DNA of 64,000 nt, taken from the NCBI RefSeq assembly GCF_009649785.1, contig NZ_WJOK01000013.1, positions 62,001 to 126,000 of the forward strand, read 5' to 3'. The DNA is from Agrobacterium tumefaciens (GTDB lineage Bacteria; Pseudomonadota; Alphaproteobacteria; Rhizobiales; Rhizobiaceae). Below are positions 8,779-45,824 of this stretch, piece after piece. Every line of letters starts with the position of its first letter. The stretch's first letter is position 1. The notes beneath the pieces are model-generated. The model was not told where the DNA came from. It saw only the letters and a list, made by a program, of their open reading frames with translations, and did no database searches. The position numbers and the translations under genes are program-made.

Positions 8779-8970
8779 GTCACCCACACGATTTTCCCGA
8801 TCATGATCCCTGCGCCCGAGTTTCCCTCGCGAAGTTCAAAACCATGTTAATTTTCACCGACGGGATTTTTTCAAACGCCGGTGGAACCGATTTCCAATGC
8901 TCACGTTATTGTGACGCATATCACATCGGCGCTTGCCTTTGGACGGCAAGTCATAGGGGAGTTATTTCAA

Positions 8971-9132
8971 ATGATCACACGTATTCTTTCGACAGTTTTC
9001 GTGGCTTTGTTGACCGTCGTGACCTTGAGTTCCTGCGGTAATACCATTCGCGGCGTTGGCCGGGATACGGCAAATGCAGTGGACGCCACGCAGGACGCAG
9101 GTCGTAGCGTAGACCGCGCCGCGCGTCGCTAA
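8971..9132 (+). CDS. Entericidin-like small lipoprotein
   Basis: A 53-aa lipoprotein precursor. The signal peptide ends in a lipobox TLSSC, and the mature part (CGNTIRGVGRDTANAVDATQ) is the entericidin EcnA/EcnB signature. The start at 8971 has GGGGAG a few bases upstream. These peptides are membrane-anchored and, in enterics, part of an antidote/toxin pair induced by stress; only one member is present here. It is followed directly by an intrinsic terminator, so it is a single-gene transcript. Confidence 0.9.
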   Translation: MITRILSTVFVALLTVVTLSSCGNTIRGVGRDTANAVDATQDAGRSVDRAARR

Positions 9133-18649: not shown

Positions 18650-19102
18650 TCACGTGCCTGAATAGGTAGTCGCCGGGTCGAAATGGCGGGTATCGTCGGT
18701 GATTCTGGTGACGGCATTGCCATCGGCCAACTCGACCGTGCGGTAGAAGCAGGAGCGGCGGCCGGTATGGCAGGTTGCGTCATGACCGGCGACGGAGACC
18801 TTCAGCCATACGGCGTCCTGATCGCAATCGGTGCGGAATTCCTTCACCGTCTGCAGGTTGCCGGAGGTTTCACCCTTTTTCCAGATCTTGTCGCGCGAGC
18901 GGCTGTAATAGTGGGCGATGCCCGTTTCCAGCGTCAGCGACAGGGCTTGCGCATTCATATGGGCGACCATCAGCAATTCACCATCACGCGCATCGGTGAC
19001 CACGGCGGTGACAAGGCCGTGGGCATCGAATTTCGGTGAGAAGAGACCTGAATTTTCAAGCACTTCCTTGTCCGCAGGCGCAGACGGAAACGAAATGGAC
19101 AT
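18650..19102 (-). CDS. hisI: Phosphoribosyl-AMP cyclohydrolase HisI
   Basis: It opens the purine ring of PR-AMP in histidine biosynthesis. The 150-aa single-domain form lacks the fused HisE part. Zinc and magnesium ligands are in [25 protein letters not shown], and the [13 protein letters not shown] segment is the family signature. It sits apart from other his genes, between folE and a patatin gene, as often seen in rhizobia. Confidence 0.96.
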
Positions 19103-19129
19103 TGCTACCCCGGGGAAAAAGCGGAACCG

Positions 19130-19756
19130 TCAGCGGTTCCGCACCATGGTCATGAAGCGCACCTGCTCCGCCGGGTCGTTCTTGAAGGTGCCGGTGAAGC
19201 TGGTGGTGAGGGTCGTGGACCCCTGCTTGTTTACGCCGCGCATGGACATGCACATATGTTCGGCGTCGATCATGACGGCCACGCCGCGCGGCTTCAGGGT
19301 TTCCTCGATGGATCTTGCGATCTGCGCGGTCATGTTTTCCTGCGTCTGCAGGCGGCGGCCAAAGATTTCAACGACGCGGGCGATCTTCGACAGGCCGAGC
19401 ACGCGCCCAGCCGGAAGATAGGCGACATGCGCCTTGCCGACGATCGGAACCATGTGGTGTTCGCAATGGGAGAAGAAGGGGATGTCGCGCACCAGCACCA
19501 CATCGTCATAACCGCCAACTTCCTCGAAGGTCGTGCCGAGAACGTCCTGGACGTTCAGCTCGTAACCGGCGAAGAGTTCGCGATAGGCCTTGGCAACCCG
19601 CTTCGGCGTGTCCAGGAGTCCTTCGCGGGCGGGATTTTCTCCTGCCCAGCGCAGAAGAACGCGCACTGCTTCTTCCGCTTCCGTCTGGCTTGGGCGAGCC
19701 TCTGCCACATCGGGTTTTGCGCCAGCGCCGGGGAAATTCTTCACGATCGCATCCAT
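19130..19756 (-). CDS. folE: GTP cyclohydrolase I FolE
   Basis: First enzyme of folate synthesis, turning GTP into dihydroneopterin triphosphate. About 208 aa. Zinc ligands are the Cys and His of [11 protein letters not shown] and the Cys of EHMCMSMRG; the [19 protein letters not shown] segment is the core signature. I chose ATG 19756 because GGGAGAGACGGA precedes it; the frame stays open for 70 further codons upstream, but that stretch is compositionally unlike the protein. It is 27 bp upstream of hisI. Confidence 0.96.
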
Positions 19757-40598: not shown

Positions 40599-41390
40599 TC
40601 AGGCGGTTGCATCGCCCTTGCTGGCCGACAGTGTTTTTTCCTGACCAATGGTTTCGATCATCGTCGCCACTGCATCCGCCGCCGCTTTCAGCACGGTGGC
40701 ATCACGGGCGCGCACGACGATCTCCGTCGAAAAGCGTTGTCCGTCATATTTCGGGTAGGAGCCGATGCTGGTTTCCGGGTGCGCTTTCTGGATTGCGGTC
40801 AGCGGCGTGCCGATGTCACCTTCGCCATAGGGAGAGCGCACCGACTGCGACATGACTTTCGCGCCGGTGCGCAGCGTTGGCATGACATTGTCCAGCATGG
40901 CCTGAAACACCTGCGGAACGCCGGCCATGACGTGGACGTTGCCGATGACGAAGCCGGGGGCGACCGAGACGGGATTGGCGATGTGGCTTGCCCCCCTTGG
41001 CATGCGGGCCATGCGCTTGCGCGCTTCGGTGAATTCCATCTCGCGTACACGGTACATGTCACCCAATATCCGCAAAGCCTCGGCATCGTGCTCGCAGGGC
41101 AGGCCGAAAGCCACGGATACCGCATCAGCGGTGATGTCGTCATGGGTCGGGCCGATGCCGCCGGAGGTGAAGACATAATCATAGCGGGCGCGTAGCGCAT
41201 TCAGCGCTTCGACGATTGCGTGCTCCTCGTCGGCGACGATGCGCACTTCCTTCAAGTCTATTCCGGACATGGTGAGCACATCCGCGAGGTGCCCGATATT
41301 CTTGTCCTTGGTGCGTCCCGACAGCAATTCGTCGCCGATGGCGAGCATGGCGGCGGTCACGACGGATGGGGTGGGTGAGGGATTGGACAT
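40599..41390 (-). CDS. Molybdopterin-binding (MoaB/MogA-like, CinA N-terminal) domain protein
   Basis: A 263-aa protein with the MoCF-biosynthesis fold: AMLAIGDELLSGRTKDKNI, the loop FTSGGIGPTHDDITADAV and MPRGASHIANPV. This equals the N-terminal half of CinA without the C-terminal amidase-like pyridine-nucleotide deamidase domain. Likely a nucleotide pyrophosphatase-type or molybdopterin-binding activity; the exact role is uncertain. Confidence 0.9.
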   Translation of the reverse strand: MSNPSPTPSVVTAAMLAIGDELLSGRTKDKNIGHLADVLTMSGIDLKEVRIVADEEHAIVEALNALRARYDYVFTSGGIGPTHDDITADAVSVAFGLPCEHDAEALRILGDMYRVREMEFTEARKRMARMPRGASHIANPVSVAPGFVIGNVHVMAGVPQVFQAMLDNVMPTLRTGAKVMSQSVRSPYGEGDIGTPLTAIQKAHPETSIGSYPKYDGQRFSTEIVVRARDATVLKAAADAVATMIETIGQEKTLSASKGDATA

Positions 41391-41667
41391 GGGGGTACTC
41401 GTCAGCTGTTTTGTCCGACGTTAGTCCGCCGCCCGGTGAATGCAAAGCGGTTTTGAAAAAATGTCTATCTGTGAAAGGTTGACGTTCCGGCGTTTCGTTC
41501 ACTGATTGCGAACAGTGCGTATGCGGATGCACCGCTGGTGTGGGACCGGCCTCTGGGCTACCTTTGCATCACATGCTTGTAACTGGTCACCACTAATGAT
41601 CATCGCGTTCTTAAAAAGGCTTCTGGCTGGTACGCCTGAGACGATTAACCCTAAGGATACAAAGAAA

Positions 41668-42267
41668 ATGACAAAAGTTCTGGTGCTTTATTATTCATCT
41701 TACGGCCATATCGAGACGATGGCATATGCCGTTGCCGAAGGCGTGAAGTCTGCCGGCGCGGAAGTTGTCGTCAAGCGCGTTCCGGAACTGGTTCCTGAGG
41801 AAGTCGCCAAATCCTCGCACTTCAAGCTCGATCAGGCTGCCCCCATCGCGACTGTTGACGAACTGGCAGAATACGATGCCATCATCGTCGGCGCCGGCAC
41901 CCGCTTCGGCACGGTTGCCTCACAGATGCGCAATTTCTGGGACCAGACCGGCGGTCTGTGGTTCGGCGGCAAGCTTGTCGGCAAGGTCGGCTCTGCCTTC
42001 ACCTCGTCGGCCACGCAGCACGGCGGTCAGGAATCGACCATCCTTGGTTTCCTCCCCACCTTCCTGCACCACGGCATGGCCGTTGTCGGTCTGCCCTATG
42101 CCTTCCAGGGCCAGATGGGCGTCGATGAAATCAAGGGCGGCTCGCCTTATGGCGCCTCCACCATCACCGATGGCGACGGCTCGCGTCAGCCTTCCGCTAT
42201 CGAACTGGAAGCCGCACGCTACCAAGGCGCACATGTAGCCAAGCTGGCCGCCAAGCTTTCTGCTTGA
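41668..42267 (+). CDS. wrbA: NAD(P)H:quinone oxidoreductase WrbA
   Basis: A 199-aa flavodoxin-like FMN enzyme reducing quinones by two electrons, protecting against redox cycling. It shows [13 protein letters not shown] (phosphate-binding loop), [24 protein letters not shown] and the [14 protein letters not shown] segment that defines WrbA. The ATG at 41668 follows AAGGATACAAAGAAA. A perfect terminator follows. Confidence 0.96.
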
Positions 42268-42287
42268 GCCTGCATTGCTGGAAAAAG

Positions 42288-42316
42288 AAATGCGGCCCGA
42301 AAGGCCGCATTTTCTT
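42288..42316 (+). terminator. Intrinsic terminator of wrbA
   Basis: AAATGCGGCC and GGCCGCATTT form a perfect 10-bp stem with a five-base loop and a TTTTCTT tail. Confidence 0.9.
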
Positions 42317-42367
42317 ACTCCGGCATCTAACGTCGCCGGTACCGCAGGGAATGATTTTTAAGGCGGG

Positions 42368-42457
42368 TCAGATCGGCAGGTTGACCATGAAAAGGCAGCT
42401 TGCAATCACGACGCCGAGCATGGAAATTTCGAGAAAACCATTCAATCCGTCACGCAT
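42368..42457 (-). CDS. 29-aa hydrophobic peptide 1
   Basis: The start codon is preceded by AAGGAGGATTGAA, the strongest ribosome binding site in this part of the window. The peptide MRDGLNGFLEISMLGVVIAS continues with CLFMVNLPI and stops; nearly all of it is one membrane helix. No family known to me. Length and helix pattern resemble known bacterial small membrane proteins that bind larger partners. Confidence 0.65.
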   Translation of the reverse strand: MRDGLNGFLEISMLGVVIASCLFMVNLPI

Positions 42458-42584
42458 TTCAATCCTCCTTGTTGATCGAAGAGAGAACGGAAAAGATTTA
42501 TCGCGGTTCCATAACAGCAGAATGAAATTTAGGAAATTTTAATGCCCTGCCGCTCCGTCACAATACGGAGTGGACATCGGTGCT

Positions 42585-42674
42585 TCAGCCGGTAACGACG
42601 AAGGCGACCACGAGGTGACCGAGAAGGCCGATGGCGAGGCAGGAGAGGAGAAATATGAACAGGGCTTTTTTCAT
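42585..42674 (-). CDS. 29-aa hydrophobic peptide 2
   Basis: Exactly the same length as peptide 1 and upstream of it on the same strand. MKKALFIFLLSCLAIGLLGH continues with LVVAFVVTG. It is one transmembrane helix with a basic N-terminus, or a bare signal peptide. TGGAAAC precedes the ATG, a modest ribosome binding site. Frame ends in a clear TGA. Confidence 0.55.
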   Translation of the reverse strand: MKKALFIFLLSCLAIGLLGHLVVAFVVTG

Positions 42675-42776
42675 GTTTCCAGAAGCTTCCATCTGTTTTT
42701 ACCCTTTAAACCTGTTGTCCTGACTTGTTTCGCCTCAGGACGCCATTTTAATTCTCGACCATGGGTCTTGATGCCG

Positions 42777-43022
42777 TCAGGCCTTGATGTCGAGGCCAGC
42801 CTCGATTGCGGCGGCGATGAAGGCCTTGCGCGCATCCTCCGGCTTTTTCCTGCCGGCATCGACGGCGGCGCAGACCAGCAACGCCGCGTCCAACGCATCG
42901 CCGTCCTCTATCGGCCAATCCTCGATCATGGCCCAGGACGCCGCCTGCGTGGTCTCGATGCTCGTATAGTCGCCCGGCGTTTCGAACGCGATCAGGACGG
43001 GTTTTTGCCAGCGCGTGTTCAT
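42777..43022 (-). CDS. DUF982 domain protein
   Basis: An 81-aa soluble protein. The pattern TTQAASWAMIEDWPIEDGDA...AARKAFIAAAIEAG is that of DUF982, a short domain abundant in rhizobia, often near regulators. Function unknown. The start is preceded by GGATGAGCG. Confidence 0.85.
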   Translation of the reverse strand: MNTRWQKPVLIAFETPGDYTSIETTQAASWAMIEDWPIEDGDALDAALLVCAAVDAGRKKPEDARKAFIAAAIEAGLDIKA

Positions 43023-43105
43023 CGCTCATCCGTGTTGGTTATCGTGCCCGGCTCTAAACCAAGCGGGCAGGATGCGCAATTGGTTTCGGTTGGCTCGCGG
43101 TGCGG

Positions 43106-43387
43106 TCAGTCGTCGCGTCCGAACAGCCAATCGCGAATGATGCGGCGGTCTATGAGTTCGAGCGAGCGATCGGGCGCAATGCGATAGGTTTCCACCGCCC
43201 TCGTGCTGCCGTCGATGCGGAACTCGTGGCTGAAGGTGCTGCCGATCGGCGATTTCGTCAGCTTGGTGCGCGGCTGGCCCTTATAGGTGATGCTGCCGGG
43301 GATCGGTTCGACATAAGCGGCCGGGCCTGAGGTCGTGCAGCCCGCAAGCGTAAGCGCGATTGCGGCCAATGATACGAGCGTTTTCAT
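43106..43387 (-). CDS. Small lipoprotein
   Basis: A 93-aa lipoprotein precursor: signal peptide with lipobox LAGC (cleavage before Cys17), then about 76 mature residues with PGSITYKGQPRTKLTKSPIGS and a C-terminal acidic end. No family recognised. GGAGGACAGG precedes the ATG. Confidence 0.8.
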   Translation of the reverse strand: MKTLVSLAAIALTLAGCTTSGPAAYVEPIPGSITYKGQPRTKLTKSPIGSTFSHEFRIDGSTRAVETYRIAPDRSLELIDRRIIRDWLFGRDD

Positions 43388-43473
43388 CCTGTCCTCCGAA
43401 GTGCGTCTGCGAAAACGATATGGAGGCGCAACGGTTCCCCGCGAGTGATAAAGGGCAGAGCTATTCGCAACTG

Positions 43474-43578
43474 CTACTTGCGTCTCGGATTTTGAGTGTC
43501 GCGCGCGACCCAGCGGAAGAAAGCGTAGACGAGCAGGCCGAAGATGAAAAGCGGGATGAGGTTCGCAAAACCGGACAT
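43474..43578 (-). CDS. 34-aa single-pass membrane peptide
   Basis: MSGFANLIPLFIFGLLVYAF followed by FRWVARDTQNPRRK: one hydrophobic helix then a basic tail, a typical positive-inside arrangement. GGGAGGGAG lies about 16 bases upstream, with GAGAATC nearer. A strong RNA hairpin (43734-43767) lies in its presumed leader. Confidence 0.6.
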   Translation of the reverse strand: MSGFANLIPLFIFGLLVYAFFRWVARDTQNPRRK

Positions 43579-44083
43579 ATGATTCTCATTTCTCCCTCCC
43601 GATCCGGGGTCTAACCGGAGAGAAAGAGGCAAGGCAAGCGTGGCGTGCAGCGCCGCAGGTAAAATGTCCGTGTGCCTGTTTGGGGAACGGTTTGCGTGCG
43701 GCGGGAAGATCGCCGGAGAAGAAGGAAACAGGTGAGACCTGGCGCACTGCCAGTGATACCAGGTCTCCCAGTCCCCCGCCAGTTTCAGGGAACGGGTGAC
43801 TTGATTTAGTATGACGAACGGCATGCGATATACATAGACCGAGAAATTACCTCGAATAAATCGCTACCTTGGTCGATCACCCCGGGGCCTGGGCGTGGTG
43901 CGTAGCTAATTGCTGCCGCCATGCGCGCACGACCCGCCGCGTTGTCCGCAAATGCCGTTTAACCCGTTGAATCGGCTGGAGATGCATTCTCGGCCCACGC
44001 CATAAGCGGATGAAGTAAACGGAACTTTTTGCGTGTTTGATCATTAAATACAGCGCATACCTATTATTCATGGAGGGCTAAAC
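43579..44083. other. 505-bp non-coding region with a strong hairpin
   Basis: Between the 34-aa peptide (minus) and the DUF3309 gene (plus). The only marked element is the hairpin at 43734-43767. AT content rises from 44020, fitting a DUF3309 promoter. Confidence 0.6.
43734..43767. ncRNA. Strong two-tier hairpin, candidate small RNA or leader element
   Basis: GAGACCTGG (43734-43742) and CCAGGTCTC (43759-43767) pair perfectly; inside, CACT and AGTG form a second 4-bp stem with a three-base loop. No T run follows on either strand, so it is not a simple terminator. On the minus strand it would be in the leader of the 34-aa peptide gene. Confidence 0.45.
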
Positions 44084-44236
44084 ATGATCGGCACCATTCT
44101 CGTTATCCTCATCATTCTTTTCCTGATCGGTGCTTTGCCAAGCTGGGGTTACCACAATTACGGTTATGGTCCCTCGGGTGGCCTCGGACTGGTTCTGGTT
44201 ATCGTCCTCGTTCTTGTTCTGCTGGGTCGCATCTGA
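44084..44236 (+). CDS. DUF3309 small membrane protein
   Basis: A 50-aa protein with two membrane helices (GTILVILIILFLIGALPSWG and [18 protein letters not shown]) joined by a short loop HNYGYGPSGG. This is the DUF3309 pattern, common in proteobacteria and of unknown role. GGAGGGCTAAAC precedes the ATG. A terminator follows within 70 bases. Confidence 0.85.
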   Translation: MIGTILVILIILFLIGALPSWGYHNYGYGPSGGLGLVLVIVLVLVLLGRI

Positions 44237-44262
44237 TCGATCCGCATTGAAGATGCAGCGAC

Positions 44263-44306
44263 TGCCCGCACCCGCGCAAAAGCGCCGGTCGCGGGCATTG
44301 TTTCTT
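44263..44306 (+). terminator. Intrinsic terminator of the DUF3309 gene
   Basis: TGCCCGC (44263-44269) pairs with GCGGGCA (44291-44297), with GCGC pairs inside, and is followed by TTGTTTCTT. Confidence 0.7.
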
Positions 44307-44477
44307 CTGGAATATGAGTGAGATACAAAAAATGACGGAATCCGAAGGGCTTAGGACGTGGACTATTGCCCTTTGCCCATCGGATCGGAAAAAACAGCAC
44401 ATTCGGAACGAACCCTCTTGCGCGCATAATGGATTCGTTCTAAATGCCCGCCATCGCTCGAATTCATGAGCGTGTGA

Positions 44478-44551
44478 GGCCTCGTGGCGGAGTGGTGACG
44501 CAGAGGACTGCAAATCCTTGTACCCCGGTTCAATTCCGGGCGAGGCCTCCA
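44478..44551 (+). tRNA. tRNA-Cys (GCA)
   Basis: A 74-nt cloverleaf. The acceptor stem is GGCCTCG with CGAGGCC, then T and an encoded CCA. The anticodon arm is AGGACTGCAAATCCT with anticodon GCA; the T arm is CCCGG-TTCAATT-CCGGG. It is single-copy in the window and stands alone. Confidence 0.97.
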
Positions 44552-44796
44552 AAAACTTCACCGAATAGAACCTGTTTTTTTGAACCTTTGGCTCACCTTG
44601 CGGTCATCGGCTGCCCTTGCTGTTCTAAAAAATCCCGGCCATTTCGCTTTTTCCAGCACTTAGGGCTCACCGCGCTTGAAAGCGCAGGCTTGGGCAATTA
44701 TGAGATTGTTTAAAGGCGAGGGGAGACCCGTGCCGTTTTGAGCTTTTGGGGCCGAGGCTTCCCGACCGGCATCCGCGAAATTGAGGCGATAACGAT

Positions 44797-45468
44797 ATGA
44801 TGGATTTCGAAACCGCACGCGCCAACATGGTCGACAGCCAGTTGCGCACGACCGACGTGACGTCGCATTCTGTGCTGAAGGCGTTTTTGAGCGTGCCGCG
44901 CGAAGCTTTCGTGCCGGCGGGTGTGCGGCAGATTGCCTATGTGGACGAGGATCTGCAGATCTGTCCCGCCCGGGATGGTCGCCCGGCCCGTTACGTCATG
45001 AAGGCCTCGCCGCTGGCGAAGCTTTTGCAGCTTGCGGCAGTGACCAAGGAAGACGTGGTGCTGGAAGTCGGTGGCGGCGCCGGTTATACCGCGGCCATCC
45101 TGTCCCAGCTCGCCGGTTCGGTGGTTTCGCTCGAATGCGACGAAACGCTGGCGGCTGAGGCGACTGAGACGCTGGCCTCACTCGGATATGACAATGTTGC
45201 TGTTGTCACCGGCGATCTCGAAAAGGGTTATGCGGGCGAAGCACCCTATGACCTGATTTTCATCAACGGCTCTGTAGAGGAAGTGCCGGCGGCACTGACC
45301 GACCAGCTGCGCGATGGCGGACGTCTGGTCGTCGTTGTCGGATACGGTAACGCTGCCAAGGCAACCGTTTACCGTCGCGATGGCAACAGCACATCGGCTG
45401 CAACCTCTTTCAACGCGTCGATCAAGCCTCTGCCCGGTTTTGCCAAGGCGGCCGAATTCGTTTTCTGA
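44797..45468 (+). CDS. Protein-L-isoaspartate methyltransferase family protein (Pcm-like)
   Basis: A 223-aa SAM-dependent methyltransferase. The SAM motif is VVLEVGGGAGYTAAIL (about residues 88-103) and the N-terminal NMVDSQLRTTDV is typical of the alphaproteobacterial Pcm-like group. The canonical Ser/Thr region of true Pcm is changed, so isoaspartate repair is not certain. In related genomes this gene often lies beside tolC; here popZ follows after a terminator and a 300-bp gap. Two adjacent ATG codons can start it. Confidence 0.85.
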   Translation: MMDFETARANMVDSQLRTTDVTSHSVLKAFLSVPREAFVPAGVRQIAYVDEDLQICPARDGRPARYVMKASPLAKLLQLAAVTKEDVVLEVGGGAGYTAAILSQLAGSVVSLECDETLAAEATETLASLGYDNVAVVTGDLEKGYAGEAPYDLIFINGSVEEVPAALTDQLRDGGRLVVVVGYGNAAKATVYRRDGNSTSAATSFNASIKPLPGFAKAAEFVF

Positions 45469-45824
45469 TCTTTAAAAGCGATCATTGTTTTGGACGCCGG
45501 GGTGGACTTTCCGCCCCGGCGTTTGTTTTTTACGGGTGCCGCACCGGCAGACCCGCTTCGCCCACCCAATTGCCCAAAAAGACCATTCTCACAAAGCTGT
45601 GCATCACGGCGAAACTTGTCGAATCAGTGATTTAGTTCCTGACTATGCTGCCCTAGACTAAGGGTGATTCGGGGTGTGCGTATTTCTACCCCTTTTCAGG
45701 CCATCGGCCCGAAAACCGGAAGCGATTTTCGACAGGGACGGTGTGCAGATTTAAAATGTTGGAGCGTCCTTTGGGCGTCCGTATGGACGCAAGGCGGTCT
45801 AGAGAGTGGAAACCGGGGATTGAT
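45469..45824. other. 356-bp gap between the Pcm-like gene and popZ
   Basis: Holds the terminator of the Pcm-like gene (45494-45531) and presumably the popZ promoter. No gene is recognised. Confidence 0.6.
45494..45531 (+). terminator. Intrinsic terminator of the Pcm-like gene
   Basis: CGCCGGGG (45495-45502) pairs perfectly with CCCCGGCG (45514-45521), then TTTGTTTTTT. Confidence 0.9.

Follow-up and report, generated by a model that had tools for sequence, protein, structure and literature searches.

What do the very small hydrophobic frames clustered at one locus of the Agrobacterium tumefaciens genome encode, and when would they be expressed? The cluster (the island) lies in a 64,000-nucleotide stretch of contig NZ_WJOK01000013.1 (positions 62,001–126,000), which we analysed as a whole and refer to as the window. 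An initial annotation of this DNA had recognized two unrelated frames of 29 amino acids (aa), here called sA and sB, together with frames of 34 (sC), 50, 81 and 93 aa, and had suggested that their grouping marks a stress-induced envelope module. All six frames were found where it had placed them, and the near-ideal ribosome binding site that it had noted for sA, AAGGAGG, was confirmed. The gene order is cinA(−), wrbA(+), sA(−), sB(−), DUF982(−), lipoprotein(−), sC(−), DUF3309(+), tRNA-Cys(+), pcm(+), where cinA is a name that we presume from the sequence. We favour, with moderate confidence, the view that the island is a locus of the general stress response (EcfG/PhyR), and that sA may be a stress-induced inner-membrane adaptor that docks through its N-terminal motif.

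The first issue is whether the short frames are genes. In a set of 39 Agrobacterium-genus genomes, 38 carry the lipoprotein, and those 38 stretches (the window and L039–L075) were read. The order and strand of sA, sB, the DUF982 gene and the lipoprotein gene are identical in all of them. sA keeps its ATG, its stop and its length of 29 aa at 38 of 38 loci, and GGAGG-like sites precede it in most relatives. By script, sB has 29 aa in 28 loci and 28 aa in 10, one of which (L044) was called one codon late, with an ATG directly before the chosen start. An alternative start for sB in the window, an upstream ATG that would give 35 aa, is absent from many relatives; the 29-aa start is retained. The ratio of non-silent to silent change (pN/pS), which the initial annotation had proposed as a check alongside start and stop conservation, is 0.249 for sA, 0.229 for sB, 0.249 for sC and 0.067 for DUF3309, and 0.94–6.1 in shifted frames (equal-length pairs only, with one row that lacks an ATG excluded for each of sB, sC and DUF3309). 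Variable columns at codon positions 1/2/3 number 14/7/25 in sA and 16/4/27 in sB (28 codons), counted over unique rows of the commonest length. Because of this conservation and silent-site bias we reject the reading as chance frames, and the 29-aa frames are almost certainly genes under coding selection.

The same pattern bears on the idea that these transcripts work as regulatory RNAs, with peptides arising only as by-products. RpoE2-type motifs have been predicted before 23 small RNAs of Sinorhizobium meliloti (PMC3616915), which speaks in its favour. Nevertheless, changes in sA and sB concentrate at third codon positions, and across positions 41000–45500 only the tRNA-Cys passes the Rfam cut-off, which also led us to discard a structured RNA reading; we regard regulatory RNAs as a most improbable explanation. 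Within the same interval there was no match to an Rfam antitoxin RNA, as sought for a type I toxin, although undescribed antisense RNAs would escape such a scan.

We then considered when the genes might be transcribed. An element of the form GGAAC-N18/19-TT is found 53–56 nucleotides (nt) before the ATG of sA (38 of 38 loci), 52–76 nt before the start of the DUF3309 gene (37 of 37) and 51–91 nt before the lipoprotein gene (38 of 38), the last distances being approximate in 11 loci because the residue-1 codon is not ATG there. The search admitted N17–19 within 220 nt, and the counts were unchanged with N18–19 within 120 nt. No element was found upstream of wrbA (0/28), sB (0/38), sC (0/23), pcm (0/35) or cinA (0/38); upstream of DUF982 there is one in 13 of 38 loci, at 127–149 nt, within the 3′ end of the lipoprotein coding sequence. 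Shuffled 120-nt stretches gave means of 0.41 of 38 for sA, 0.35 of 38 for the lipoprotein and 0.35 of 37 for DUF3309, with a maximum of 4. Open reading frames of at least 150 aa seldom have an element within 110 nt upstream: one does among 41 in the window, and one among 204 across the remaining 37 loci. The element is fixed and its spacer variable, with a mean pairwise spacer identity of 0.53–0.63.

The island element equals GGAAC-N16-CGTT, the motif published for Rhizobium etli EcfG1 (PMC3892343), whose regulon, like that of S. meliloti RpoE2, belongs to the general stress response of Alphaproteobacteria; for Sphingomonas, the published EcfG motif is GGAAC-N17-20-GTT (PMC6599016). The genome under study encodes NepR (PF18557, above cut-off), with an element 57 nt before its ATG, and a PhyR-like frame, read by eye, adjoins NepR and also has an element upstream. 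The genome thus encodes the PhyR–NepR–EcfG switch as judged from NepR and the PhyR-like frame. From established knowledge of such promoters we infer that the island is very probably under EcfG control.

Two further matches to the EcfG-type motif in the window are recorded here. One, at 8883–8907 (+), lies 88 nt before a 53-aa entericidin-domain lipoprotein at 8971–9132 (+; NF052367, E 4.4e-18). The other, at 19116–19140 (−), lies 38 nt before a 150-aa frame at 18650–19102 (−), which we take to resemble HisI; no other frame of that length or longer in the window has the motif within 110 nt.

A simple perfect-stem scan of the 38 loci found no terminator-like hairpin between the lipoprotein and DUF982, between DUF982 and sB or between sB and sA, and found a hairpin with a T-run 3′ of sA in 36. 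The lipoprotein promoter could therefore serve all four genes, which look like one operon with an extra stress-type promoter for sA (Table 1).

Table 1. Coordinates of the island's features within the window.
Feature	Position	Strand	Remarks
sA, 29-aa peptide MRDGLNGFLEISMLGVVIASCLFMVNLPI	42368..42457	−	predicted single span; first member of the MxDG..ExS family
sA ribosome binding site, AAGGAGG	42464..42470	−	read from sequence; six bases 5′ of ATG
sA EcfG-type promoter element, GGAAC-N16-CGTT	42486..42510	−	kept in 38/38 loci
Intrinsic-terminator-like hairpin 3′ of sA, between convergent sA and wrbA	42288..42312	−	stem scan
sB, second 29-aa peptide MKKALFIFLLSCLAIGLLGHLVVAFVVTG, unrelated to sA	42585..42674	−	kept in 38/38 loci
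DUF982 protein, 81 aa	42777..43022	−	PF06169, E 4.8e-17; 38/38 loci
Predicted lipoprotein, 93 aa, no known family	43106..43387	−	lipobox L-A-G-C; 38/39 genus genomes
Lipoprotein EcfG-type promoter element; by putative read-through also for DUF982-sB-sA	43413..43438	−	38/38 loci
sC, 34-aa hydrophobic peptide, lineage-limited, without EcfG element	43474..43578	−	intact in 22/38 loci
EcfG-type promoter element of the DUF3309 gene	44021..44045	+	37/37 loci
DUF3309 protein, 50 aa, hydrophobic	44084..44236	+	PF11752, E 3.9e-18; pN/pS 0.067

sA apparently founds a new family of hydrophobic peptides of 23–29 aa with the signature M-x-D-G-(F/L)-x-E-(L/I)-S, whose members usually have the same promoter 53–58 nt upstream. 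The 39th genus genome (G013), in which the lipoprotein gene is missing, encodes a related peptide of 26 aa, MRDSLIEVSMFGAVILTCLYITVPLI, just 5′ of a pcm-like frame; the element lies 65 nt upstream of the peptide's ATG. A genome of another genus (G065, genus g28) has the member MRDGFVEMSMLGLVLLACLLIYAPPI, where the element is also present. In a third genus, g70, where members had come up with refined profiles, a DNA pattern confined to coding sequence, with no promoter in the query, marked 11 places in six of seven genomes. All 11 encode hydrophobic peptides of 23–26 aa, and 10 have the strict element 54–58 nt upstream (shuffle expectation 0.075 of 11, maximum 2); the eleventh has GGGAC at the element position, as read by eye. 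The seventh genome (G260) holds a 27-aa member that the pattern missed, again with the element. The coding-only pattern in 71 genomes across the order gave nine places in eight genomes, none with a small hydrophobic peptide or a strict element.

Residues M1, D3, E10 and S12 (sA numbering) are invariant over 19 representatives, and G4 is nearly so. In 17 representatives, identity over the last six tail residues is 0.71, compared with 0.35 over the first 13 helix residues, and the net charge is −1 or −2 in every one. The members tested fall in no Pfam or NCBIfam family, and sA matches no PHROG. The best match of the peptide family in the PDB (E 0.084) was judged to be chance.

Profiles of 24–29 residues have little power. 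A profile search of named genomes with sA gave 24 loci: 15 in Agrobacterium, 6 in Rhizobium (nepotum, rhizogenes twice, skierniewicense and two further species) and 3 in Rhizobiales isolates. Among 297 genomes of the bacterial family, the first sA profile matched eight, namely six of the genus, G065 and G301; the G301 match lies inside a 575-aa frame and was judged to be chance. A pattern of promoter plus MRDG matched 43 places in 36 of the 297, and the 31 places translated contained no member beyond Agrobacterium and G065. A stricter pattern matched four genomes, with a member only in G065, the other three being judged from the listed bases. The widest profile matched 20 genomes at E ≤ 0.1, its members being those of the genus, G065 and four g70 genomes. 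Its matches in G132, G226 and G155 (E about 0.01) fall in 368-aa frames and the rest are weaker; these were judged to be chance, after inspection of one of that trio and three others. A plasmid collection had no match for the two peptides tested and a phage collection none for the one peptide tested. A pattern scan of viral contigs gave 10 matches, one of them a true member, and a protein scan returned the same contig only. Six peptide fragments were absent from the literature searched, whose scope excluded preprints and most subscription papers. To the extent of these searches, novelty seems to lie in the peptide family, in the promoter signature that goes with it and in the prophage copies; stress-induced small membrane proteins are a kind already known.

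The setting of the g70 copies raises the possibility that the peptide is of mobile or prophage origin, as a moron or a lysis or toxin part, and was domesticated in Agrobacterium. Four of the 11 copies (L252–L255) have phage tail and endolysin genes to one or both sides, on the opposite strand, with PHROG matches to a tail fibre in L252, L253 and L254 and to an endolysin in all four. Their promoter is strict in three and has one mismatch in the fourth, and the L252 peptide also occurs in an IMG/VR viral contig (L251). L252–L255 and that contig could hold morons under host stress control. Like phage morons, the four copies are single genes with their own promoter on the strand opposite to the neighbouring modules; unlike them, they have a promoter of the host general-stress type and belong to a family with a fixed non-phage place in Agrobacterium. 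Because all four run opposite to the tail and endolysin genes, a holin or other lysis role is unlikely.

The seven other g70 copies have other contexts. Four (L202, L206, L207 and L209) have a common FAA-hydrolase neighbour. The L256 copy (9221, +) lies between a glgA-like gene and COX2/COX1 genes, about 1.4 kb before the COX2-like gene and 2.6 kb before COX1 on the same strand. The L257 copy has PRC-barrel and catalase neighbours, and the L258 copy has an iron-permease-like gene about 0.5 kb away together with DUF892 and HWE-kinase genes. Stress-type neighbours of these chromosomal copies within about 2.5 kb are the catalase (L257) and DUF892 with the HWE kinase (L258). In Agrobacterium the gene keeps a single position, flanked on one side by cinA at all 38 loci, and none of the six island proteins has a PHROG match at E ≤ 0.001 (the flanks lay outside that scan). 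We consider a prophage origin of the Agrobacterium gene improbable.

How might sA act? In the scheme that we prefer, the operon lipoprotein-DUF982-sB-sA would be read from EcfG-type promoters before the lipoprotein and before sA and would end at the terminator common with wrbA, the nearby DUF3309 gene having a separate promoter of this type. Under stress, PhyR would free EcfG. sA would then be translated from a message with a short leader and a strong ribosome binding site and, as established knowledge of such hydrophobic peptides leads us to infer, would insert in the inner membrane as a single span. Its acidic N-terminal tail may dock on a membrane partner (a transporter, respiratory enzyme, sensor or envelope protease) and change that partner's activity or stability, the variable helix serving mainly as an anchor. 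The docking step, which we put forward tentatively, is the least secure part of the scheme.

An alternative proposal is that the two peptides, sA and sB, act on the membrane directly under stress, reducing its potential or fluidity and so quieting metabolism with no specific partner. This is suggested by YohP of Escherichia coli, a tiny membrane peptide of 27 aa whose level rises during starvation and stress, and which lowers the membrane potential and has a protective effect (PMC12719787). YohP-like proteins have fewer than 50 aa and one membrane span; both 29-aa peptides are of that size and are predicted to span the membrane once, with best 19-residue Kyte-Doolittle means of 2.17 (sA) and 2.58 (sB), and sA has a stress-type promoter. 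The invariant acidic N-terminal motif and EcfG-type promoter of the sA family differ from what is described for YohP. The best-kept part of the peptides is the end of the tail, and the net charge is negative in each of the 17 representatives; both features point to a partner and away from the kind of membrane disruption described for YohP. We therefore think direct action on the membrane unlikely.

A related view, to which we give slightly less weight still, is that sA joins a respiratory or transport complex as a small extra subunit supplied under stress. CydX and KdpF are small accessory subunits of such complexes. Among 19 family members, two resemble Pfam COX4_pro_2 (lowest E 0.052), but the match is below cut-off (PF07835, 13.4 against 22 bits for one member). 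The L256 and L258 copies lie near COX2/COX1 and the iron-permease-like gene respectively, yet no common oxidase or transporter accompanies the copies beside the FAA hydrolase, the catalase, the prophage genes or cinA/pcm, among the neighbouring frames searched. Given the oxidase genes near one copy, the partner in the docking scheme could be a respiratory one.

Several points weigh against assigning the island to the EcfG response with sA as an adaptor. The promoters are consensus matches, and across the window the motif is no commoner than in shuffles (9 occurrences against 7.1; 10 against 7.0 for the N19 form); the weight therefore rests on position and conservation, and the related genomes are not independent. 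The residue-1 codon of the lipoprotein is ATG in only 27 of 38 loci. sB, DUF982 and sC are without an element of their own, and read-through to DUF982 and sB is deduced from missing hairpins. The conserved tail could serve insertion instead of a partner. Finally, members were seen in only three of the 109 genera (Agrobacterium, g28 and g70) represented by the 297 genomes, and the family is therefore either patchy or diverged beyond detection.

The remaining genes define how far the island is a unit. In sB, residues M1, K2, K3, C12, L13, G19 and H20 are invariant over 12 representatives, and a profile search of 291 genomes of the bacterial family outside the genus gave no convincing relative; matches in seven of them (E 0.002–0.045) were judged to be chance. 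An intact sC was found in 22 loci and a degenerate one in L048; the other 15 gave none. For both 29-mers, the 34-mer and the lipoprotein, Pfam gave nothing significant and NCBIfam nothing above cut-off. DUF982 scored 62.1 bits with PF06169 (cut-off 22.2) and DUF3309 65.7 bits with PF11752 (cut-off 22.3). The DUF3309 ATG is lost in one of 37 loci (L051, G044), apparently through a 12-base deletion, with the EcfG-type motif retained. Relative to the lipoprotein, DUF3309 is on the + strand in 23 loci and the − strand in 14, and the promoter element is kept each time. In the literature searched, a single paper names DUF3309, as an entry in a list of released proteins, and a single paper names DUF982 together with Agrobacterium.

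Each of the 38 genomes with the lipoprotein has a second copy elsewhere; of 39 such places, 20 were read (L221–L240), and 11 have the strict element within 200 nt, their starts being uncertain. The AlphaFold model of the lipoprotein contains beta strands only (mean predicted local distance difference test, pLDDT, 68; predicted template-modelling score, pTM, 0.50). Foldseek found nothing in the PDB at E ≤ 0.001 (best 0.41), and the best PDB sequence match (E 0.011) was judged to be chance. wrbA, present at 28 of 38 loci, was rejected as a member of the unit: it never has the element, and at the 10 loci where it was not found sA stays beside cinA. An anti-phage defence role was also rejected, with no PADLOC family found and one chance-level match, of DUF3309 (E 0.15).

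The interpretation in the initial annotation thus holds in part. Stress induction gains real though indirect support, at the promoter level, for sA, the lipoprotein and DUF3309, and does not extend to sC. An envelope location fits one lipoprotein and four hydrophobic peptides, all of them predictions. A module is apparent in the operon-like set lipoprotein-DUF982-sB-sA; sC, missing or broken in 16 of 38 loci, and DUF3309, with its changing strand, fit it less well, and sA relatives in other genera lie elsewhere.

Our literature search found no report of these peptides of 23–29 aa, and regulation in Agrobacterium is a prediction made here. A further parallel comes from S. meliloti, of a related genus, where SEP1–SEP20 are likewise short, often unannotated frames, and where a ribosome-profiling study reports a product for two of three tested proteins of less than 30 aa; its text does not mention RpoE2 (PMC10117765). 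By profile, neither the close form of sA nor sB was found outside Agrobacterium, save for distant sA relatives.

Many general-stress targets in Alphaproteobacteria are without predicted function (150 of 202 rpoE2-induced protein genes in S. meliloti; PMC3616915), and genes of fewer than 30 codons are hard to call. Promoter and motif, used together as a signature, offer a direct means of counting genes of this type, chromosomal and prophage-borne alike. More speculatively, and we hold this only as a possibility, the M-x-D-G-(F/L)-x-E-(L/I)-S peptides may be a new class of stress microproteins that are mobile: one-gene units, each equipped with an EcfG promoter of the host, which move between chromosome and prophages in Rhizobiaceae. 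Every such peptide would insert a variable helix in the inner membrane and show a shared acidic motif to a single, conserved membrane partner in the host. If so, such peptides would be carried by prophages as morons, toughening the lysogen at the very time that the host senses stress. With two short conserved peptides in a tractable organism, the role of stress-induced microproteins becomes directly testable.

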